A stretch of 64,000 bases of DNA from Algoriphagus algorifonticola (GTDB lineage Bacteria > Bacteroidota > Bacteroidia > Cytophagales > Cyclobacteriaceae). The stretch is from positions 62,001 through 126,000 of the forward strand of contig NZ_VLOG01000052.1 in assembly GCF_007655305.1 (NCBI RefSeq). The letters are read 5' to 3'. This document shows, piece after piece, positions 51,757 to 63,778 of this stretch; positions within the stretch are counted from its first letter, which is position 1, and each line of letters starts with the position of its first letter. The translations under genes and the position numbers were made by a program. The notes below the pieces were generated by a model. It saw only the letters and a list, made by a program, of their open reading frames with translations, made no database searches and had not been told where the DNA came from.

Positions 51757-52977
51757 TCACAGATTGTTAATTTTTATTTCCCTTTCGGATGGATTTCGTC
51801 GCCCATTATTTTTGGGAACAGACACAAAATCAAACACCGCAAACCCCAACTCATCATCTACATTGACATAGGACCAGAGTTTGCCGTCTTTGAAGAAGGC
51901 GCTTAATGGAGCTCGATCTAATTCCGGGATTTCAGTTTCTCCAATTAGTTTGAGATTTTTATCAAAGGCGAATAAAAATACCTGAGCCTTGAGGGGAGCT
52001 TCTTTATCTTCCCGGGCTTGATAGATTCTTCCAAAACGATAGTATCTCTCAGATTTGTCATCATAAATCAGCTTTTCAAATCCAATCTGAGTTCTGGCTT
52101 TTTCCATCTCAGATTCAAACTCCTCCTGTGAGGAAACTTCATTTCTAATCTGCTTTTCTTTTTTGTTGGGAGCAACAGTAAATTCATATTCGTACAAAAC
52201 CAATGAATCGAGTTCTGGAAAAAACTCATAGATATTATTGGTAGGACTCGTAGACAAAAAATACCTGTTATTGATTCTTTGAAAGTGAATCTCCTCCACG
52301 TATATCATCATGCCATCATTCGAATTAAGAATAATTTGATATTCTGATGCCTTCTCCAAAGCAGGCAGGTCATAAATTTTACCGTTTTTTTCTCTAAAGT
52401 TGAATTTTGCCAGCTTTCTGCTTGCTTTCATGAAGTCACCGGGAAGTGAAAACAGTTTTTCATCTTCAATAGATAAGATCAGTTTGTAGTGGAGGGAATA
52501 TTTGAAATTCTCCTCCATTCCCTCAATATCAAAATCATCACCTTTTAGTGTGTAGTCCTTGATCAATTCGCCCTCCCTATCTATCAAACTGGATTTTTCA
52601 TATCCAGAAAGAAAAAACCTTTCTCCGGGAAAAACATCGAACACTTCTATATACTCACCGACTCCATTAGGCCCTTCTTTTTCAAATGAAAGCTGCTCTT
52701 CCAGTTTTAGACTGTTGAGATTTACTTTATTGATCAAGGAGTTTTTCCCATCCAGTAAATAAAGATGTGATTTAGACTCATTAATTGTATGTGTACCCAG
52801 TCCATAAGGAAGACTGATCAATTCCTCACCCGGATCGACAACCACGGTATCCACGGAAAAGGAAAAGTTAGCTAGAACATTGGTTGAGTCGTTTTCAGCA
52901 GATTCTTTCTCTCCACCACAGGAAAAAGCGAAAGCAACAAAAAGTGCGAGGACAAAGGTTTTTCCTAATTTGTACAT
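51757..52977 (-). CDS. DUF4221-like lipoprotein, array member 3
   Basis: 406 aa. Lipobox AFSC (C20). Motifs DTVVVDPGEEL, EGPNGVG and SYVNVDDELGFAVFDF. Unlike its relatives it has a basic C-terminal extension of about 20 residues (KNNGRRNPSEREIKINNL). It carries copy B of the 72-bp identical tract. Starts 1 bp after the stop of member 2. Confidence 0.82.
   Translation of the reverse strand: MYKLGKTFVLALFVAFAFSCGGEKESAENDSTNVLANFSFSVDTVVVDPGEELISLPYGLGTHTINESKSHLYLLDGKNSLINKVNLNSLKLEEQLSFEKEGPNGVGEYIEVFDVFPGERFFLSGYEKSSLIDREGELIKDYTLKGDDFDIEGMEENFKYSLHYKLILSIEDEKLFSLPGDFMKASRKLAKFNFREKNGKIYDLPALEKASEYQIILNSNDGMMIYVEEIHFQRINNRYFLSTSPTNNIYEFFPELDSLVLYEYEFTVAPNKKEKQIRNEVSSQEEFESEMEKARTQIGFEKLIYDDKSERYYRFGRIYQAREDKEAPLKAQVFLFAFDKNLKLIGETEIPELDRAPLSAFFKDGKLWSYVNVDDELGFAVFDFVSVPKNNGRRNPSEREIKINNL
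51826..51897 (-). repeat. 72-bp identical tract, copy B (3' end of array member 3)
   Basis: Identical to 48343-48414. Flanking bases differ on both sides (ACAC before and GGCG after here; ACTT and TGGG at copy A), so the tract ends are sharp. Confidence 0.9.
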
Positions 52978-52978
52978 A

Positions 52979-54115
52979 TCAATAGGTTAAGGTCATTCTT
53001 ACAAAGCCGGGATCTTCATCTACTGGTCGATAACTGTAGAGCTTGCCTTCGAAGAAAAAGGCTCGTCCAAAGGGATAGGGCAAATCAACTTTTTGCTCCC
53101 CGAGCAATTGCAACTTCTCATCATAGGCAAATAAGTAGACATCTTTCTTTTTAGGTTCGCCAGTTTCCAATTTCCCATTGCTCTTAGATCCAAATCGGAA
53201 ATACAGCTTTCTGCTTGGATCCCAATATAATCCTGAAAATGTCGCTTGCTGGTTGATTTCATCGCCTACTTCTCTTACTCTTTCCTGCGAGTCTACTTTT
53301 GAAGGAAAAGAACCGGTCTTTTTCGATGGAATAAGCTGATGATTGAAAGTTTTAAGTATTAAAGAATCCGTAGTAAAGTCGTATAGGTATAAGTCGGAAG
53401 TACTGCCAGAATATATGACAAGCTGATCCTTAACTTTTTGAATGGATATGAAATCTCCATAAGTAGTGCTTGAATTTTCACTTCTGAAGGTCACTTGGAA
53501 ATTTTTCGTGATTTCCAAAGCAGGAAGTGGGATGAGCTCACCTGTTTTTTGTTCCAAATTCATTTTGGCAATAAAAGCGCTAAAAAGCTCTGAAGGCTTG
53601 TTGGGTGTAGAAAAAGCCAGTTTCTTATCCGGGCTGATAGTGAGATTAAAATAAAGTGCATTCAAATCCTCGTCCAAGCCCTTGAATTCATCAGGCTGTA
53701 TCTCCATAGCCTGAATTTTTTCTGCTTGCTCATTGTAGATTCCCTGAATTCCGTAGTGTGCCAACATGAATTCATTCTTTGGAAGGACGTCGAAGTAATT
53801 GATAAAATTGGGAGCCCGATTAGGCCCGTCTTTTTCAAAGTATATTCTGCGGACCAATTGGAGATTTTGAAGGTTTATTTCATGTACCTCAGGCTCTTGG
53901 TTTAAGGCAAAGTAGACCGATTGACCATCTTCACTTAGCCCAAACTGATAATACATCCCAGGATTAAAAATTTCCTCTCCTACATCGACTCTGACGGTGT
54001 CAATGGTTATACTAAGATTCTCGAGAAGATTTCCTTCTGTAGATGATTCTTGCTTGGCATTTTTACCACAAGAAATAAGAAGGAATAAGAACGCAGTAAT
54101 GGTTAATCTATTCAT
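52979..54115 (-). CDS. DUF4221-like lipoprotein, array member 2
   Basis: 378 aa. Lipobox LISC (C16). Motifs DTVRVDVGEEI, DGPNRAP and an end reading YRPVDEDPGFVRM. More divergent than members 3-6. It starts 3 bp after the stop of member 1. Confidence 0.82.
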   Translation of the reverse strand: MNRLTITAFLFLLISCGKNAKQESSTEGNLLENLSITIDTVRVDVGEEIFNPGMYYQFGLSEDGQSVYFALNQEPEVHEINLQNLQLVRRIYFEKDGPNRAPNFINYFDVLPKNEFMLAHYGIQGIYNEQAEKIQAMEIQPDEFKGLDEDLNALYFNLTISPDKKLAFSTPNKPSELFSAFIAKMNLEQKTGELIPLPALEITKNFQVTFRSENSSTTYGDFISIQKVKDQLVIYSGSTSDLYLYDFTTDSLILKTFNHQLIPSKKTGSFPSKVDSQERVREVGDEINQQATFSGLYWDPSRKLYFRFGSKSNGKLETGEPKKKDVYLFAYDEKLQLLGEQKVDLPYPFGRAFFFEGKLYSYRPVDEDPGFVRMTLTY

Positions 54116-54118
54116 GCA

Positions 54119-55252
54119 TTAGAAGTTAAATTGAAATCTGACAAATCCGGCCTCATCTCCCATGGGCCAATAGCTGTAAAACTCTCCTTTGTAGAAATAG
54201 CCATTATAAGGAATTCTAGTTAGTTCGGGTAAAAATGCCTCACCGATTAAGTTTAAGTCCTGATCATAGGCAAATAGGTAACAGTCGGCTTTTCGCTCCC
54301 TTCCATCCGGAGAGACATAGTAATTTTTGGTAGCAAATCGGAAATAAAGTTTGCGGCTTTCATCCCAATAGAAATTTTCGAATGAGATTTGTTGGCGCAT
54401 TTTATTGGCAATCTCCATCTGTTTTTCTCTGGAATCTACTTCATTGGGAAATGAACCGCTTTTTTGGTTTTCTACCAGTTGATGCTCAAAGGAGATCAAT
54501 TCCATAGAACCCTTCTTGTAGTCATATTTATAGACTTGAGCAGTTGAGTTACAAGTAACCAGTAGTTGATGATTTATCAATTGTAATCCTACCCTATCGC
54601 CATAAAATGAGGCTCCGTTTCCCTGGCGGAAAATCACTTGAAAACCTGTGACTAAATCAAAGGCAGGTAGTTTCAAAACCTTTCCATTCTCATTAACCAT
54701 ATCAAATACCGCAAGGCCGAGAATGGGCTTTCCAAACTCTGCTGGTAAAGAGAAAAAGAAATTTTGCTCTGGGCTGGATTTCAAATAATTAGTAACCATA
54801 AAGGGATTTTCAGACTGAAAATCAATCATATTTTGAAAATCCTGTTCAAATGATTTTAATTTTTTGCCTTCCAGATCATAAATACTTGGAATCACCCCGT
54901 CATAAATCATCAGTTGATCCTCAGGAAGAGCCTGAAATGAGCTAACCCATCCTTTGATTCCTTCTGGGCCTTCCCGTTGGAAGGGATATCTATTGAGCAG
55001 CTTCATTTCCTTCAGGGATATTTCAAAGACCTCGAAGTCTGGCTCATAAAAAGCAAAGACCCGCTCGCCATCCATGCTTAGATCTTCGGAATAGATTCCA
55101 TCGGGAGCAAACACCTCATCTCCTGAGTCTACGACCAAACTGTCAAATTGAAGGCTCAGGTTTTCAAGGACATTCTTGGATTCCTGCGTTGTTTTATCTT
55201 GGTCACAGGAAAAAAGGACCAGTGCCAAAATCAGGGGTAAAAAGCTTTTCAT
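54119..55252 (-). CDS. DUF4221-like lipoprotein, array member 1 (first gene)
   Basis: 377 aa. Lipobox LFSC (C16). Motifs DSLVVDSGDEV, EGPEGIK and YWPMGDEAGFVRF. The gene is first in the leftward array. The 92 bp before it to the TspO gene contain an AT-rich stretch (TATAAACTTTTG on the minus strand) that only loosely matches the -7 consensus. It shares the DxGDE...F and ...GFVRF layout with the other members. Confidence 0.82.
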   Translation of the reverse strand: MKSFLPLILALVLFSCDQDKTTQESKNVLENLSLQFDSLVVDSGDEVFAPDGIYSEDLSMDGERVFAFYEPDFEVFEISLKEMKLLNRYPFQREGPEGIKGWVSSFQALPEDQLMIYDGVIPSIYDLEGKKLKSFEQDFQNMIDFQSENPFMVTNYLKSSPEQNFFFSLPAEFGKPILGLAVFDMVNENGKVLKLPAFDLVTGFQVIFRQGNGASFYGDRVGLQLINHQLLVTCNSTAQVYKYDYKKGSMELISFEHQLVENQKSGSFPNEVDSREKQMEIANKMRQQISFENFYWDESRKLYFRFATKNYYVSPDGRERKADCYLFAYDQDLNLIGEAFLPELTRIPYNGYFYKGEFYSYWPMGDEAGFVRFQFNF

Positions 55253-56983: not shown

Positions 56984-57430
56984 ATGATTAAAGCTATAGG
57001 ATTTATCTTTCTGGGATTTATCGTAATGGAATTTTCCGGCTGGTTGATTCACAAGTATCTGATGCATGGTCCTCTATGGATGATTCACAAGACACATCAT
57101 CGGCCATCCAAGTCTTTCTTTGAGTTGAATGATTTGTTTTCGTTACTCTTCGGAAGTATTGCAGTAGTATTGATTTTCCTGGGATTGGAAAATCTTGATT
57201 ATCGGTTTTGGATGGGAATCGGAATCAGTTTGTACGGAGTACTCTATTTCTTTTTGCATGATGTTTTGGTTCATCGCAGGTTGAAATGGTTTGACCGACC
57301 CAAAAATGCTTTCCTAAAAGGAATCTTCAAGGCGCATCAAGCGCATCATAAAACCAATCAAAAGGAAGATGCTGTTTCCTTTGGATTGTTCGTAGTACCC
57401 AGAGAATATTTTAAACAGGAAGAAAAGTGA
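56984..57430 (+). CDS. crtZ: Beta-carotene hydroxylase CrtZ
   Basis: 148 aa from ATG 56984 (a GTG codon lies just before). The four His motifs are complete: HKYLMH (23-28), HKTHH (35-39), HDVLVH (92-97) and HQAHH (118-122). It hydroxylates C-3 of the beta ring. Its stop overlaps the GTG start of the carH-like gene by 4 bp, linking pigment chemistry to the regulator in one transcript. Confidence 0.93.
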   Translation: MIKAIGFIFLGFIVMEFSGWLIHKYLMHGPLWMIHKTHHRPSKSFFELNDLFSLLFGSIAVVLIFLGLENLDYRFWMGIGISLYGVLYFFLHDVLVHRRLKWFDRPKNAFLKGIFKAHQAHHKTNQKEDAVSFGLFVVPREYFKQEEK

Positions 57431-58323
57431 GCACTTATTCGATCAAAGATCTAGAGCAACTTTCAGGTATCAAAGCCCATACATTACGTATTTGGGAGCA
57501 GCGTTACAATTTGCTAAGCCCCAAAAGGACTGATACCAATATCCGTTATTATGATGATGCGGACCTGAAACTGATTTTGAATGTCGCTTTGTTGAATGAC
57601 AATGGCTTCAAGATCAGTAAGATTGCATCTATGGAAGAGGGAGAGATTCGTACCGAAGTGATGAAACTGACGGAAAGATCTCTAACCCATGACGATCAAA
57701 TTCATGCATTGACTATCTGTATGATAGAAATGGATGAGGAACGTTTCGATAAAATTCTTTCTTCCAATATCCTTAAACTGGGCTTTGAGCAAACCATGCT
57801 CAACATCATCTATCCATTCATGTCTAAGATTGGAGTGCTTTGGCAAACCGGAGCGATCAATCCGGCTCAGGAGCATTTCATTTCTAACCTGGTCAGACAG
57901 AAACTCATTGTAGCTATAGATGGTCAAGTGGTAAATGGTGGAGGAAAGAAATTTTTACTATTCCTACCAGAAGGCGAACTTCATGAAATTTCCTTGCTTT
58001 TCGCAGCTTATCTGATCAAAAGCATGGGACATAAGGTAATATACTTAGGACAAAGCACCCCTAATGATGATCTCCTTTCCGTTTATAAATTGCATAGACC
58101 TGATTACCTTTTAACTGTGATTACTACCTCACCGAGTTCGGAATATGCACAAGACTATGTGGATGCTTTGTCAGAGCGTTTTCTGGAAGCAAAAATCTTG
58201 ATCACAGGGTATCAAGTGATCGGTCAGGATTTAAAATTCCCGGCCAATGTGCAGCAACTCAATTACATCAGGGACATCAAAGTTATGCTGGAAGAGCTCG
58301 CAGAAGTGACTCAAGAGAAATAG
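57427..58323 (+). CDS. CarH/LitR-like MerR regulator with B12-binding domain
   Basis: 298 aa from a GTG start overlapping the crtZ stop. N-terminal MerR HTH (3-70; IKDLEQLSGIKAHTLRIWEQRYNLL). The C-terminal cobalamin domain retains W139 and E149-H150, the W-x9-EH motif that in CarH covers the adenosyl group, and a GExH-type lower ligand motif GELHEIS (H186; the Gly after x2 is Ser). The layout suggests a light-sensing repressor of carotenoid genes. The divergence at the last motif position is worth noting. It precedes the terminator at 58351. Confidence 0.9.
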   Translation: MSTYSIKDLEQLSGIKAHTLRIWEQRYNLLSPKRTDTNIRYYDDADLKLILNVALLNDNGFKISKIASMEEGEIRTEVMKLTERSLTHDDQIHALTICMIEMDEERFDKILSSNILKLGFEQTMLNIIYPFMSKIGVLWQTGAINPAQEHFISNLVRQKLIVAIDGQVVNGGGKKFLLFLPEGELHEISLLFAAYLIKSMGHKVIYLGQSTPNDDLLSVYKLHRPDYLLTVITTSPSSEYAQDYVDALSERFLEAKILITGYQVIGQDLKFPANVQQLNYIRDIKVMLEELAEVTQEK

Positions 58324-58343
58324 TCTAAAGAATTTAGCAATAA

Positions 58344-58353
58344 ATTAAACAAA
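58344..58353 (-). promoter_or_regulatory. Single TTTGTTTAAT-type half-site after carH
   Basis: ATTAAACAAA, identical to the half-sites in the two dyads downstream. It overlaps the left arm of the terminator, so it may be chance or a spare binding site. Confidence 0.35.
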
Positions 58354-58380
58354 AGGCATTCTACCAAGAATGCCTTTTTT
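58351..58380 (+). terminator. Rho-independent terminator after the carH-like gene
   Basis: AAAAGGCATT, 8-nt loop, AATGCCTTTT (58351-58378), then T residues. It separates the crtZ-carH transcript from the sigma factor operon, which therefore needs its own promoter. Confidence 0.88.
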
Positions 58381-58437
58381 TGTCCATTTATATCCAAATT
58401 CGGCCATAAATCCCAATAAAGAGCGGTCAGGAAATAA

Positions 58438-58471
58438 TTTGTTTAATCTAATTGAAAAAAAATTAAACAAA
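58438..58471. promoter_or_regulatory. Operator-like dyad 1 upstream of the carotenoid sigma gene
   Basis: TTTGTTTAAT (58438-58447) and its exact complement ATTAAACAAA (58462-58471), start to start 24 bp. The dyad ends 3 bp before the -33 element. Its arrangement is repeated 44 bp downstream. Confidence 0.75.
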
Positions 58472-58474
58472 AGC

Positions 58475-58505
58475 TTTGTATTTTGTTTAAGTATTCCTAA
58501 GTTTG
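58475..58505 (+). promoter_or_regulatory. Promoter of the sigma factor/crtI operon
   Basis: TTTG (58475-58478), spacer of exactly 19 bp, TAAGTTTG (58498-58505). This matches the Bacteroidota consensus TTTG-N19-TAnnTTTG at every fixed position. The expected start is near 58512, some 18 nt before the ATG at 58530. Confidence 0.85.
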
Positions 58506-58515
58506 ATTAAACAAA
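58482..58515. promoter_or_regulatory. Operator-like dyad 2, overlapping the promoter
   Basis: TTTGTTTAA (58482-58490; the tenth base is G) and ATTAAACAAA (58506-58515), again 24 bp start to start. The left half-site falls in the promoter spacer and the right one directly follows the -7 element, so bound protein would block RNA polymerase. Confidence 0.78.
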
Positions 58516-58529
58516 AACACAAAGCTACC

Positions 58530-59042
58530 ATGACAACTCTAGAATTCAGTTACTCACTACACAAGCTTTCCAGCACACTGAAACCATTTGCACTGAAGTT
58601 AACCAGAGACATGGATGATGCAAATGATTTGTTACAAGACACCATGGTAAAGGCATTTACCAACAGAGATAAGTTTACAGAAGGTACCAACCTGAAAGCA
58701 TGGTTGTATACCATTATGAAAAACACCTTCATCACCAACTATCAGCGAATGGTCAGAAGGGGCACATTCGTAGACACCACAGACAATCTTCATTACATCA
58801 ATTCCAGCGATTCTCAAATTGAGAATGGCGTGTATGGAAACTTTGCGATGGAAGATATTTACACCGCAATTGACAAACTGGACGATGTATACAAGACTCC
58901 TTTTATGATGCACTACAGAGGATTCAAGTATCATGAAATTGCGGATAAGTTGCAGATTCCAATTGGAACTGTAAAGAATAGAATACATATTGCCAGAAAG
59001 CTGTTGAAAGATGATCTAGCAGTTTATAAGAATAAAAATTGA
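58530..59042 (+). CDS. ECF-type RNA polymerase sigma factor of the carotenoid operon
   Basis: 170 aa from ATG 58530; a TTG at 58503 overlaps the promoter and is rejected. Region 2 is about 10-75 (DANDLLQDTMVKAF...NLKAWLYTIMKNTFI) and region 4 is 115-163 (KTPFMMHYRGFKYHEIADKLQIPIGTVKNRI). There is no anti-sigma gene next to it; instead a CarH-like repressor lies upstream. It is 4 bp before crtI, so it probably boosts expression of pigment genes. Confidence 0.92.
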   Translation: MTTLEFSYSLHKLSSTLKPFALKLTRDMDDANDLLQDTMVKAFTNRDKFTEGTNLKAWLYTIMKNTFITNYQRMVRRGTFVDTTDNLHYINSSDSQIENGVYGNFAMEDIYTAIDKLDDVYKTPFMMHYRGFKYHEIADKLQIPIGTVKNRIHIARKLLKDDLAVYKNKN

Positions 59043-59046
59043 TCCT

Positions 59047-60528
59047 ATGAGTAAAAAGCATGTGGTGGTAATCGGTTCTGGCTTTGCAGGACTTTCAGTA
59101 GCCACCCATCTGGCAGGAGAGAGTTGTTCAGTTACCCTTTTAGAAAAAAACGAAACCCCAGGAGGTCGAGCGAGAAAGTTTGAGCACCAGGGGTTTGTTT
59201 TTGATATGGGTCCCAGTTGGTACTGGATGCCGGATGTATTTGAGGATTATTTTGCCCGATTTGGGAAAAAGCCATCCGACTATTATGATCTGATTCGTCT
59301 GGATCCTTCTTATGCTGTCATTTATGGAGAGCAAGAAGTTCTGGATATTCCTGCCAATATGGATGAATTCAAAGCCATGTTGGATAGAATCGAACCAGGT
59401 GCAGGCAAGCAGCTGGATTTATTTTTAGAGCAGGCAAAATACAAGTACGAGGTAGGCATTCACGATTTGGTCAAAAGGCCAAGCAGATCTCTATTGGAAT
59501 TTGCCTCTCCGGGATTGCTCGTGGATATGGTGAAAATGGATATTTTCCAATCCATGTCTAAGCATGTTCGCAAGTTTTTCAAATCTGAGCAGATTATTCG
59601 TTTGATGGAATTTCCTGTTCTCTTTTTAGGAGAAACAGCTGAAAATATTCCTGCCCTTTATTCTCTAATGAACTATGCGGATATCGCTTTGGGTACTTGG
59701 TATCCTAAAAAGGGAATGCACGAGATTATCCGAGGGATGGTTTCCTTGGCTGAAGAAAAAGGAGTTGAAATCCGCTATGCATCCGAAGTAGAAGAAATTG
59801 AGGTGGAAAAAGGCTTGGCTAAACGAGTTCGTCTAATTTCTGGAGAAAAAATTGAAGCGGATATTGTGATTGCCGGTGCAGATTATCATCACGTGGATAA
59901 GCATTTGCTCAATCCTAATTACAGCAATTATTCTGAGGAATACTGGGACAAGCGGGTTATGGCTCCCTCCAGTTTGTTGTTTTACTTGGGAATTGATAAA
60001 AAACTGAAGAATCTGCGTCATCACAACCTGTTTTTTGATGAGCCACTGGGTCCTCACGCCGACGCGATTTACAAAAATCCAAGATGGCCAGAGAAGCCGC
60101 TTTTCTATGCTTCCGTCCCATCAATTACAGATTCCACAGTAGCTCCTGAGGGAAAAGAAAATATGTTTTTATTAATTCCTTTGGCTCCTGACCTCGAGGA
60201 TTCTGAGGGAATGAGAGAAAAATATTACCACATCATCATGGACCGTCTAGAGAAAATCACGGGTCAGGATGTACGTTCGCATGTGATTTATAAAAGATCT
60301 TATGCCCATTCGGATTTCAAGTCGGACTATCATGCCTTCAAAGGGAATGCCTATGGCTTAGCTAATACGCTTTTGCAAACGGCTATTTTGAAACCTTCTT
60401 TGAAAAACAAAAAGGTTAAAAACCTGTATTATACGGGTCAGCTTACTGTACCTGGACCGGGTGTTCCACCATCCCTGATTTCGGGGCAGGTAGTGGCAAA
60501 AGAAGTGATCAAAGAAAACAATCTGTAA
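59047..60528 (+). CDS. crtI: Phytoene desaturase CrtI
   Basis: 493 aa. FAD-binding GSGFAGL (10-16) and acidic LLEKN, then RARKFEHQGFVFDMGPS, and the C-terminal signature YYTGQLTVPGPGVPPSLISG. It desaturates phytoene to lycopene. The window has no second desaturase (crtD). It lies 4 bp after the sigma factor and 21 bp before crtB. Confidence 0.95.
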   Translation: MSKKHVVVIGSGFAGLSVATHLAGESCSVTLLEKNETPGGRARKFEHQGFVFDMGPSWYWMPDVFEDYFARFGKKPSDYYDLIRLDPSYAVIYGEQEVLDIPANMDEFKAMLDRIEPGAGKQLDLFLEQAKYKYEVGIHDLVKRPSRSLLEFASPGLLVDMVKMDIFQSMSKHVRKFFKSEQIIRLMEFPVLFLGETAENIPALYSLMNYADIALGTWYPKKGMHEIIRGMVSLAEEKGVEIRYASEVEEIEVEKGLAKRVRLISGEKIEADIVIAGADYHHVDKHLLNPNYSNYSEEYWDKRVMAPSSLLFYLGIDKKLKNLRHHNLFFDEPLGPHADAIYKNPRWPEKPLFYASVPSITDSTVAPEGKENMFLLIPLAPDLEDSEGMREKYYHIIMDRLEKITGQDVRSHVIYKRSYAHSDFKSDYHAFKGNAYGLANTLLQTAILKPSLKNKKVKNLYYTGQLTVPGPGVPPSLISGQVVAKEVIKENNL

Positions 60529-60549
60529 ATAAATAGGTATATTATAGCA

Positions 60550-61392
60550 ATGGATGCTAAAGCACTTTTTGACCAAACCACACTGGAATGTAGCCGACTG
60601 ATCACTCAGCGATACAGTACAAGCTTCACGCTAGGGATCAAAACTTTGGACAAAAAGTTTCATCTTCCTATTTATGCCATCTATGGTTTTGTTCGGTATG
60701 CCGATGAAATTGTGGATACTTTTCATGATCAGGATAAGGCGGCTTTATTGGAGAGGTTTAAAAAAGACACCTATGAGGCCATTGATGCAAAAATCTCCCT
60801 CAATCCGGTTTTGCATGCATTTCAACTCATAGTTAATCAATATAAAATTGACCTGGACTTAATTGAGGCCTTCCTTCATAGCATGGAAATGGACCTGGAT
60901 TTCAAAAAATATAATGATTCCAAATACAATGAATACATCTATGGCTCGGCAGAAGTTGTAGGCCTGATGTGTTTGAAAGTTTTCTGTGAGGGTAATCAGG
61001 AAATATATGACCGACTGAAAGAGCCAGCATGTAAGCTAGGAGCCGCTTTCCAAAAGGTCAATTTCCTTCGGGATATCAAAAGTGATTTTGAAGAAAGAGG
61101 CAGGGTTTATTTTCCGGGTGTAGATTACAAGCTTTTCAATCGAGATATAAAAACTCAGATAGAGGAAGATATTCAGAAAGATTTTAATGACTCTCTGATT
61201 GGAATCGAACAGTTACCGGATGGTGCAAAATTAGGGGTGAAAGTGGCGTATCTCTATTACCAAAAGTTATTCGATAAAATCAAAGGTTTGCCTGCCGAAA
61301 CTATCACGCAGCAGAGAATCCGTATTCCTAATTCCAAGAAGATTTCTTTATTGGTTGGGACCTATTTTGGCACCAAACTGGGCATTAGTTAA
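60550..61392 (+). CDS. crtB: Phytoene synthase CrtB
   Basis: 280 aa. Both prenyl-phosphate-binding motifs are present: DEIVD (D52-D56) and NFLRDIKSD (D175/D179). It condenses two geranylgeranyl diphosphates to phytoene. Its stop shares one base with the start of crtYcd (TAATG), so the two are translationally coupled. Confidence 0.95.
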   Translation: MDAKALFDQTTLECSRLITQRYSTSFTLGIKTLDKKFHLPIYAIYGFVRYADEIVDTFHDQDKAALLERFKKDTYEAIDAKISLNPVLHAFQLIVNQYKIDLDLIEAFLHSMEMDLDFKKYNDSKYNEYIYGSAEVVGLMCLKVFCEGNQEIYDRLKEPACKLGAAFQKVNFLRDIKSDFEERGRVYFPGVDYKLFNRDIKTQIEEDIQKDFNDSLIGIEQLPDGAKLGVKVAYLYYQKLFDKIKGLPAETITQQRIRIPNSKKISLLVGTYFGTKLGIS

Positions 61393-62102
61393 TGGAGCAT
61401 TATTTGTATCTGGCGATCAATCTTTTTACCATTTCCTTTCCTTTGGTAAGATCTTTTGAGCCTAAAATCAGGTACGCTACTAAATGGTACGCCCTTTTCC
61501 CAGCGATATTCTTCACTGGAGCGTTCTTTCTGATTTGGGATCACTGGTTTACGGTAATGGGAGTATGGGAATTTAACCCCGATTATTTGGTAGGGATTTA
61601 CTTCTTTCAATTGCCTTTGGAAGAGTGGCTGTTTTTCTTGACAGTTCCTTTTGCCTGTATATTTATCTATGAGGTACTGATTTATTTTTTCCCGAAGGAT
61701 ATTTTCCTTCCTTTTGGAAAGCCTTTTGTCTATATCATGGTCCCATTTTTATTAGGTTTTGCAGTTTGGCACTTGGACAAATGGTACACGTCGGTCAATT
61801 TTTTCGTAGGAGCAATCGCTTTATTGGTGCACTTTCTAGTATTTAATGATAAATATTTAGGTCGCTTCTTATTTGCCTATTTGGTTCATCTAATACCGTT
61901 TTTCCTGTGTAATGGAGTTCTGACAGGTGGGTTGACAGAAGAGCCGGTGGTGATTTATAACAATGCCGAAAATTTAGGTATCCGAATTTGGACAGTTCCA
62001 ATTGAGGATAGTATTTACTCGATGACGCTCTTGTTGATGAATGTGAGTATATTCGAAAGTATCAGAAGCCGAAAAACAATTCATTCCCTGAAAAGTTTAT
62101 AG
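61392..62102 (+). CDS. crtYcd: Fused lycopene beta-cyclase CrtYcd
   Basis: 236 aa, seven or so membrane helices. It joins the two small cyclase subunits in one chain: the first half has FQLPLEEWLFF (PLEEW 75-79) and the second TVPIEDSIY (PIED 203-206), the two active-site motifs of CrtYc and CrtYd. Such fusions are known in Cytophagales carotenoid clusters and can act on one end to give a monocyclic product. It starts on the last base of the crtB stop. Confidence 0.9.
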   Translation: MEHYLYLAINLFTISFPLVRSFEPKIRYATKWYALFPAIFFTGAFFLIWDHWFTVMGVWEFNPDYLVGIYFFQLPLEEWLFFLTVPFACIFIYEVLIYFFPKDIFLPFGKPFVYIMVPFLLGFAVWHLDKWYTSVNFFVGAIALLVHFLVFNDKYLGRFLFAYLVHLIPFFLCNGVLTGGLTEEPVVIYNNAENLGIRIWTVPIEDSIYSMTLLLMNVSIFESIRSRKTIHSLKSL

Positions 62103-62198
62103 GCTATGAATTCAGGCAGGTCAAAAATCTTAAGTCTTAAGACGGTAAATTTTCTGAAAAAAACAGCTTGAGGACTAGTAAAACATAATCCAATTCAG

Positions 62199-63044
62199 AT
62201 GAAAAATCTCCATGTAGAAATTGACAATCATTCTGGCTTTTGCTTCGGAGTGGTCTATGCTATCGAAATGGCAGAGGAGATTTTGGACGAGCAAGGCTAT
62301 CTTTACTGCTTGGGAGATATTGTCCATAATGACGAAGAGGTCAATAGGCTCACCAGAAAAGGGCTAAAAATCATAGATCATTCGGAACTACATCAATTAA
62401 AGGATGAAAAAGTCCTGATTCGTGCGCATGGTGAGCCGCCGTCCACTTACGAATTGTCCATCAAAAATAATTTGACGCTTATAGATGCATCCTGTCCGGT
62501 TGTATTGAAGTTGCAAAACAGGATTAAAAATTCTTTCGACAAAGAAGAGACTATTTATATCTATGGAAAGCATGGTCATGCTGAAGTGATTGGATTGCTA
62601 GGTCAGACCAATAATAAGGCGGTAGTCTTTCAGGATATTTCTGAATTGGATATTCCTAGCCTTCCGAAAAGCCTAACCCTTTATAGCCAGACTACCAAAA
62701 GCACGGATAAATTCTATGAGATCAATGAAATCTTAAGGCAAAATGGAATCACTGTCAATACCAATGACACTATTTGCCGTCAGGTTTCCAATAGGGATAA
62801 AGAGCTTCGTGACTTTGCTGATAAGTTCAACAAAATAGTTTTCGTCAGTGGCACCAAGTCTTCCAATGGTAAGGTGCTATATAACGTTTGTAAAGAGAAA
62901 AACCCCAATACATTTTTTGTATCTAATCCAGATCAAATTGAGGAGAGCTGGTTTGAGCCCAATGAAACGGTAGGAATTTGTGGAGCCACATCAACTCCAA
63001 TGTGGCTGATGGAGCAAGTAAGAGAAAGAATTCTTACCTTTTGA
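62199..63044 (+). CDS. ispH: 4-hydroxy-3-methylbut-2-enyl diphosphate reductase
   Basis: 281 aa. The three [4Fe-4S] cysteines are C15 (SGFCFGV), C98 (IDASCPVV) and C192 (DTICRQVSNRDK); HGE and the TRG-type substrate site are present (RAHGEPP). It makes IPP and DMAPP at the end of the MEP pathway. Its place between crtYcd and crtW ties precursor supply to pigment production. It begins 96 bp after crtYcd, so a separate promoter is possible, though none was found by eye. Confidence 0.95.
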   Translation: MKNLHVEIDNHSGFCFGVVYAIEMAEEILDEQGYLYCLGDIVHNDEEVNRLTRKGLKIIDHSELHQLKDEKVLIRAHGEPPSTYELSIKNNLTLIDASCPVVLKLQNRIKNSFDKEETIYIYGKHGHAEVIGLLGQTNNKAVVFQDISELDIPSLPKSLTLYSQTTKSTDKFYEINEILRQNGITVNTNDTICRQVSNRDKELRDFADKFNKIVFVSGTKSSNGKVLYNVCKEKNPNTFFVSNPDQIEESWFEPNETVGICGATSTPMWLMEQVRERILTF

Positions 63045-63067
63045 GTAGAAAATAGGTCTAAAGTTTC

Positions 63068-63778
63068 ATGCAATTAAATCAGTACTCAATCACCCAAAAG
63101 GTAGATCCCAAAGGTCTATTGATCGCTTGGAGCATTATTTTGCTTTGGGCAGTCTCTTTGGGATTTTGGATACAGCTTGATATATCCTGGACTAGTCCAC
63201 TCACCTATTTGGGTGTATTGATCCAAATGCATCTTTACACCGGGCTATTTATCACCGCTCATGATGCCATGCATGGTGTGGTCTCTTCTCATAAGAAAAT
63301 CAATCACGCCACAGGATGGATAGCGGCGATTCTCTTTTCCTACAATTTCTATTGGAAGCTTTTTCCCAAACACCATCAGCATCATCGCCATGTTGCAACA
63401 GACGAAGATCCTGATTACCATGCTTCCGGTAATTTCCTGATTTGGTATCTCTCATTCATCCGTCAATACGTAAGCATTTGGCAGATATTATTGATGGCCG
63501 TCAGTTTTAATATTCTTAAGCTATGGCTTCCTACCGAAAACCTGATCGTATTTTGGATGCTTCCTGCGATTTTGTCCACTTTGCAACTATTTTATTTCGG
63601 CACATACCTGCCTCATAGAGGGAATAGTGATAATCCTCATCACTCACGATCTCAGTCCAAAAATCATGTTTGGGCTTTTTTGAGCTGTTACTTCTTTGGC
63701 TATCATTATGAGCATCATGACTCTCCCGGGACTCCATGGTGGAGGCTTTGGAGAGAAAAAGAAAAACAAACAGCTTGA
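63068..63778 (+). CDS. crtW: Beta-carotene ketolase CrtW
   Basis: 236 aa, four membrane helices. Histidine clusters of the fatty-acid-desaturase-like ketolases: HDAMH (65-69), HHQHHRH (102-108) and the C-terminal YHYEHHDSPGTPWWRLW, with FGTYLPHRG before it. It adds a keto group at C-4 of the beta ring. It starts 23 bp after ispH, so the two are likely co-transcribed. Confidence 0.93.
   Translation: MQLNQYSITQKVDPKGLLIAWSIILLWAVSLGFWIQLDISWTSPLTYLGVLIQMHLYTGLFITAHDAMHGVVSSHKKINHATGWIAAILFSYNFYWKLFPKHHQHHRHVATDEDPDYHASGNFLIWYLSFIRQYVSIWQILLMAVSFNILKLWLPTENLIVFWMLPAILSTLQLFYFGTYLPHRGNSDNPHHSRSQSKNHVWAFLSCYFFGYHYEHHDSPGTPWWRLWREKEKQTA

Follow-up and report, generated by a model that had tools for sequence, protein, structure and literature searches.

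In Streptomyces coelicolor, the gene for the CarH/LitR protein LitR adjoins the gene for LitS, an ECF sigma factor that drives the carotenoid genes, and the same arrangement is found at the Algoriphagus algorifonticola locus described here. Known CarH operators consist of 3-4 tandem 11-bp direct repeats, each with the half-site nnnnTnnACAn and the core TnnACA, and CarA has been suggested to read direct repeats too (PMC9304148, in the excerpted text). In Pseudomonas, class II LitR controls light-inducible clusters that include folE and an SDR gene (PMC9758184, in the excerpted text). Both CarH and PmlR2 are reported as repressors (excerpts of PMC9304148 and PMC9758184). Chryseobacterium lacus synthesizes carotenoids upon light induction by an unknown regulator, no car or lit genes having been found by the authors (excerpts of PMC7064467). 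Proteorhodopsin expression has been reported to be constitutive in Dokdonia PRO95, and its regulation in flavobacteria is said to need further work (PMC3587595, in the excerpted text). By title and abstract, the open-licence PubMed Central literature returned neither a CarH operator from Bacteroidota nor a link between CarH and proteorhodopsin.

The window, the whole stretch of 64,000 nucleotides that was analysed, contains a carH-like gene (57427-58323, + strand) encoding a 298-aa protein with a MerR-type HTH and B12-binding domains, as judged from Pfam, from the match to T. thermophilus CarH and from motifs. Downstream lies the gene of a 170-aa ECF-type sigma factor (58530-59042, +; Pfam Sigma70_r2 2.8e-13, Sigma70_r4_2 2.4e-11), the first gene of the crt operon. 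It is followed by genes for a crtI-like oxidoreductase, phytoene synthase, lycopene cyclase, LytB/IspH and a fatty acid desaturase-family protein (59047-63778, +; Pfam, ORFs), which from their spacing and strand appear to form an operon with the sigma gene. Because crtI starts 4 bp after the sigma gene, with no anti-sigma gene between them, control of its transcription may be the main control of the sigma factor. The CarH and sigma proteins are 99% and 100% identical, respectively, to those of Algoriphagus ornithinivorans DSM 15282, the two genomes being very close. Elsewhere in the window (51757-55252, - strand), three tandem lipoprotein-like ORFs of 377-406 aa look paralogous by eye; an ORF at 144-1304 of another stretch, L313, resembles them.

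The gap between carH and the sigma gene harbors two 34-bp dyads, the outer O1 (58438-58471) and the inner O2 (58482-58515), both of the form TTTGTTTAA-N16-TTAAACAAA and not assigned to a strand. They are defined by sequence and by conservation, strong in O2, across 66 aligned loci. These loci are the ones, among 80 carH loci from named records, that have a sigma gene 192-403 bp downstream; the other 14, without a nearby sigma match, were left out, and L097 is cut by a contig end. Each dyad comprises two TnnACA half-sites in inverted orientation, with core centres 24 bp apart. A first-pass annotation had described two identical dyads with this offset. Their positions and the offset of 24 stand, but identity does not, since one arm base and the spacers differ: the left half-site of O2 is TTTGTTTAAG, which has one mismatch to the 10-mer and is identical as a 9-mer, its tenth base being G where the others have T. 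The 44 bp given as the distance between the dyads is correct for their starts, the facing edges of O1 and O2 being just 10 bp apart. The second dyad was also rightly said to straddle the -7 element of a TTTG-N19-TAAGTTTG promoter. The -33 element TTTG (58475-58478, +; from the sequence) lies between O1 and O2, and the -7 element TAAGTTTG (58498-58505, +) lies inside O2, directly 5' of its right half-site. A box of the form TAnnTTT(G/C) occurs within the inner dyad in 66/66 loci, with G in 64 and C in 2.

A fifth half-site noted earlier at 58344-58353 is present. It belongs, as the right arm, to a third dyad, O3 (ATAGTCTAA-N16-TTAAACAAA, 58320-58353, no strand assigned), which is degenerate but likewise has the N16 spacing; the left arm of O3 extends over the carH stop codon. 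The weakest of the three, O3 is by itself not significant, ten other places in the window being equally good (at most two core mismatches, gap 15-17). Near the carH stop, an O3 equivalent with gap 16 occurs in 42/66 loci as a raw count (at most three mismatches, nn free); it has the identical offset in 32/66 and is absent in 24/66 (at most three core mismatches, nn free). At 58352-58381 (+), an inverted repeat AAAGGCATTCT...AGAATGCCTTTTTTT followed by a T run was read by eye as the putative carH terminator. Between 58300 and 58535, O1 and O2 are the only inverted TnnACA cores 24 bp apart. This interval has no cores on one strand at distances of 11, 22 or 33 bp, so the direct-repeat arrangement of CarH is absent here; tandem 11-bp CarH repeats, considered as the operator, were rejected for the same interval.

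The half-sites are AT-rich, and the single 10-mer, at most one mismatch allowed, shows no enrichment in the window (14 occurrences against 18 expected). Both facts would suit an origin of the repeats as chance or structural features of AT-rich intergenic DNA, such as terminator-like sequences or RNA hairpins. Because the 10-mer alone is not enriched, the signal resides in pairing, spacing and conservation. In the 4.45-Mb A. algorifonticola genome, perfect TTTGTTTAA/TTAAACAAA pairs with gaps of 2-31 occur four times, all with gap 16, and the reversed control pattern gives no pairs. Two of the four lie in the carH-sigma gap, one precedes the operon of rhodopsin, lycopene cyclase (crtY) and Blh (L005), and one precedes an aldehyde dehydrogenase gene (L006). 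The pattern was matched in 44 of 58 related genomes and the reversed control in 4; among 75 matches counted of 76, the gap is 16 in 57, 17 in 11 and 15-17 in 68. Across 295 genomes of the class, searched with gaps of 12-20, it was matched in 93 and the reversed control in 6. Gap 16 accounts for 52, gap 17 for 10 and gaps 15-17 for 63 of the 70 class matches counted, out of 75 listed and 135 in all, a count in which the rows of G000 and G034 are left out and that of G045 is also within the relatives' 75. In a phylum-wide sample, perfect pairs were matched in 14/29 genomes of the class vs. 0/89 of the other classes, base composition being ignored. Among the named genomes searched, 22/24 have a perfect pair, the genomes of L071 and L135 having none. 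Among 106 unique gap-16 dyads, 25 have the box TAnnTTTG at position 17, one genus supplying many of them; shuffled spacers give a mean of 0.21. One match with two mismatches (G000:C22) was set aside as likely chance, the reversed control giving three matches at that stringency. In G120, a genome without CarH, two gap-13 dyads with similar spacers lie 104 bp apart (L246, 1501-1635); they are probably a different element.

The first-pass annotation had proposed to look for the dyads in relatives with the same gene order, and a gap-16 dyad with at most two mismatches is indeed kept in 66/66 carH-sigma loci; it is perfect in 38/66, and two dyads 43-45 bp apart are found in 47/66. In the 66-locus alignment the arms of O2 are strongly conserved except at bases 1 and 2 of the left arm, each T in 55/66, and at one of the n positions in the right core, which is A in 54 and C in 12; the O2 spacer varies apart from TAnnTTT(G/C). 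With TTnnACAAA as the right arm of O1, information content is 1.89-2.00 bits at the fixed T, A, C and A of the TnnACA core, against 0.85 and 0.13 bits at its two n positions. Variation within the half-sites concentrates on the nn of TnnACA, which is the CarH core as published. Taken with gap-16 specificity, shuffles and reversed controls, the conserved arms beside variable spacers make an origin by chance or structure extremely improbable: the spacing and conservation results already refute it, and chance is ruled out by the spacing in the A. algorifonticola genome, the shuffles and the reversed controls. Two members of the genus, G009 and G019, lack perfect dyads, but gap-16 dyads with two core mismatches follow closely after their carH genes (L064, L065). 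In six genomes of other families (G039, with gap 17, G041, G043, G045, G049 and G057) the sigma dyad is kept despite a carH gene elsewhere, so that the dyad is not a mere part of the carH 3' end or terminator. Among three Cyclobacterium species searched, two have a gap-15 dyad before sigma, again with carH at another place, and the third has none.

The 298-aa protein contains a MerR-type DNA-binding domain (PF13411, MerR_1, 1.8e-16) and a B12-binding_2 domain above the cut-off (PF02607, 2.5e-11), PF02310 remaining below it (4.4e-5, 23.7 bits, cut-off 32.1). It aligns to T. thermophilus CarH (5c8d) over residues 3-234 with an E-value of 8e-19. It has the Wx9EH motif, which was found in 149/149 homologous loci scanned, some genomes being represented twice; the ExH pattern also occurs in 149/149 loci, the match in L223 being at a different-looking site. 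We take Wx9EH and ExH, the latter with the B12-ligand His, to be functional motifs of the CarH-like protein. H186 is invariant among 20 aligned homologues, and the HTH DNA-binding domain is strongly conserved in 20 chosen diverse homologues. Where T. thermophilus CarH has a His after the conserved Trp, presumably the second cobalt ligand after photolysis, the A. algorifonticola protein has Gln. Since this His appears to be a feature of one CarH/LitR member rather than of the family, Gln at this place is compatible with membership in CarH/LitR. Against the NCBIfam equivalog TransRegCarH (NF052513) the protein scores 91.9 bits and does not reach the curated cut-off of 400; judged by this score, it is a relative of CarH and not a strict equivalog.

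Among the 295 class genomes, 89 have both the dyad and CarH, 4 the dyad only, 95 CarH only and 107 neither (Fisher odds ratio 25, with phylogeny and base composition ignored), the perfect dyad being absent in 95/184 CarH genomes. Among the 58 relatives, the pattern was matched in 43/51 genomes with CarH and in 1/7 without; in the one relative with a dyad but without CarH, G005 (78% complete), the gap is 17. The dyad-only genomes of the class are of two kinds: G120 (gap 13) and G329 (gaps 18 and 20) have other spacings only, and in G212 and G343 the dyads have gap 16 and stand in front of PTPS-folE. No full CarH turned up in these four by profile search: G212 and G329 gave nothing but short MerR-like stretches, and G343 and G120 gave no match at all. 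That G212, which is 100% complete, has a dyad but no full CarH (G343 being 77% complete) would fit an alternative in which the dyads are the conserved operator of another regulator, such as another MerR, a CRP/FNR or a one-component protein, that shares a light/carotenoid regulon with CarH. The alternative also draws on the direct repeats that characterised CarH proteins read, as far as the excerpted literature goes, and on a co-occurrence table that ignores phylogeny. We nevertheless judge it unlikely, since the half-sites have a TnnACA core with variable nn, the A. algorifonticola genome encodes a single CarH homologue at E <= 1e-10, CarH is encoded in 89/93 dyad genomes, and dyads lie at the start of carH in three genomes.

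These three genomes (G050, G327, G181) have a dyad 3-9 bp before the carH match, which suggests autoregulation. Among the relatives, perfect dyads precede sigma-crtI, PTPS-folE, rhodopsin-crtY-blh and aldehyde dehydrogenase genes as well as carH itself; the aldehyde dehydrogenase dyad recurs in one further genome among them, with gap 17. In A. algorifonticola, a dyad with one mismatch precedes the PTPS-folE-SDR (pterin) genes, beyond which lies a flavin reductase-like gene (L007). This dyad sits between outer inverted arms TGAACAGCAG / CTGCTGTTCA (L007, 3978-4054). Photolyase genes, expected in the PTPS operon, were not recognised in the L007 and L313 stretches, the latter judged by reading without a family scan; a photolyase gene is the dyad target in one case (L176, G046). 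Dyads with gaps of 16-17 also lie upstream of DUF4397-domain genes in five genomes (L148, L248, L251, L252, L256), and three more loci lead into a DUF2867 protein, a peptidase and a TonB-type receptor; all of these targets are without a clear light link. Such dyads may be chance or may belong to a wider regulon, and since the first gene after a class-level dyad was taken as the longest ORF nearby, some of these assignments may be wrong. The earlier proposal that the dyads are a candidate operator of the CarH-like protein is supported by their retention in 66/66 loci, their TnnACA core and the dyads before carH, and proves too narrow in that the element also precedes rhodopsin, pterin and other genes.

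A homologue of the A. algorifonticola rhodopsin is present in 60/295 class genomes, and a dyad (gap 15-17, at most two mismatches) lies within 350 bp upstream in 26/60; shuffled upstream regions average 0.25 loci and never exceed 2. The gaps of pairs upstream of rhodopsin are 16 in 22 cases, 17 in 5 and 15 in 1, with at most three at any other value. Within 350 bp and at most two mismatches, 34/60 genes have no dyad; among the 60, L296 has no upstream sequence, L205 72 bp and L207 106 bp, gene starts having been placed where the extended match reaches query residue 1. Under a looser rule (nn free), 28/60 loci are matched with at most two mismatches and 20/60 with at most one, against 4.85 and 0.5 in shuffles; because the shuffles rise to 4.85, the count of 28/60 adds little. 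In two genomes of other families (G326, G279), the rhodopsin promoter has the -7 box TAnnTTTG at the same dyad position as at sigma; the rhodopsin dyad of A. algorifonticola is without an exact TAnnTTTG. Perfect dyads before rhodopsin are also found in the named species Indibacter alkaliphilus (L332) and Mongoliibacter ruber (L333). At the diagnostic positions, the A. algorifonticola rhodopsin has D-T-E, which we take to be the marks of a proton pump, and M at the place presumed to tune colour. CarH homologues occur in 59/60 rhodopsin genomes vs. 125/235 others, the exception being G343 (77% complete); this co-occurrence may partly reflect that both accompany carotenoid synthesis. In G192, the genes for rhodopsin and a CarH homologue lie side by side in the same orientation, separated by about 220 bp (L293).

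The dyad at carotenoid, pterin and proteorhodopsin promoters of many Bacteroidota is probably the binding site of a B12-based light sensor that switches these genes on in the light. More specifically, we consider it quite probable that the 34-bp dyads serve as operator for the CarH-like B12 photoreceptor encoded next to them, which would hold one light regulon repressed in the dark and release it in the light. Behind this reading stand the element itself, its fixed spacing and conservation, its overlap with the sigma promoter, its target genes and its co-occurrence with CarH; binding, dark repression, light release and B12 dependence of the protein are what we infer. Against it speak the inverted rather than tandem cores, the dyad without a full CarH in G212, the CarH genomes and rhodopsin genes that have no dyad, the targets with no evident tie to light, the score below the equivalog cut-off, the Gln beside the Trp, the constitutive proteorhodopsin expression reported in Dokdonia PRO95 and the light-induced carotenoids of a Chryseobacterium in which no car or lit genes were found. 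In the dark, the CarH-like protein loaded with adenosylcobalamin would bind to O1 and O2 and, by masking the -7 box, keep RNA polymerase out. In the light, the Co-C bond would break and the protein would leave the DNA, so that the sigma-crt operon could be transcribed. The rhodopsin-crtY-blh, pterin (PTPS-folE-SDR) and aldehyde dehydrogenase genes, with the same element in front of them, would belong to this single light regulon.

Classical MerR proteins act as activators from inside the promoter spacer, and the regulated gene here is itself a sigma factor. CarH on the dyads might accordingly be an activator in the manner of MerR, or might act partly indirectly, via the sigma factor at other promoters, an account that partly overlaps with the one above. 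We regard it as rather unlikely. The promoter has an ordinary spacing (N19) and a full -7 box, the inner dyad covers this box and beyond, and CarH and PmlR2 are described as repressors, in the sources as excerpted; the overlap of O2 with the -7 box, the normal promoter spacing and the reported repression point together to dark repression by occlusion and release in the light. Dyads directly at the rhodopsin and pterin genes further argue against purely indirect control.

We somewhat favour a wider proposal, in which a B12 photoreceptor would directly switch proteorhodopsin phototrophy in response to light across much of the class Bacteroidia. A single CarH operator of inverted-repeat type would bring rhodopsin, the synthesis of retinal, carotenoids and pterins, and the carotenoid sigma factor under common control, and whether the proton pump is made would depend on light together with B12 supply. 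Many of these bacteria must take up vitamin B12, and phototrophy in these Bacteroidia would, if the proposal is true, be tied to this vitamin. For the control of proteorhodopsin and of light-induced carotenoid synthesis, there is now a candidate regulator that can be named, together with a precisely defined DNA site and a list of targets. CarH operators, for their part, would gain a further geometry, useful for the design of light switches.

Compared with known systems, the locus is organised like LitR/LitS of Streptomyces coelicolor, which belongs to a different phylum from Algoriphagus and for which we know of no operator of the 34-bp inverted shape and no rhodopsin. With CarH of Thermus thermophilus and Bacillus megaterium it shares a regulator with a MerR HTH and B12-binding domains, the Wx9EH and ExH motifs, the TnnACA core and an operator placed over promoter elements. 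Unlike the tandem direct repeats of these two proteins, the cores are inverted here, with centres 24 bp apart. As with myxobacterial CarA/CarH, a crt operon is predicted to be under light control, and inverted repeats were first proposed for CarA; unlike in that system, the inverted geometry has a fixed 24-bp offset, none being described for CarA/CarH in the excerpted text of PMC9304148. In including folE and SDR genes, the regulon resembles that of class II LitR of Pseudomonas (PplR1, PmlR2), LitR-family regulators of folE, SDR, photolyase and cryptochrome-like genes with paired TGTACA-type sites, as described in the excerpts of PMC9758184. The class II sites are T(G/A)TACA-N12-TGTA(C/T)A, with centres 18 bp apart, whereas those found here are TGTnnA-N18-TnnACA. 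Class II LitR, in the same excerpts, senses light via a LOV partner, whereas the CarH-like protein of Algoriphagus is predicted to bind B12 itself.
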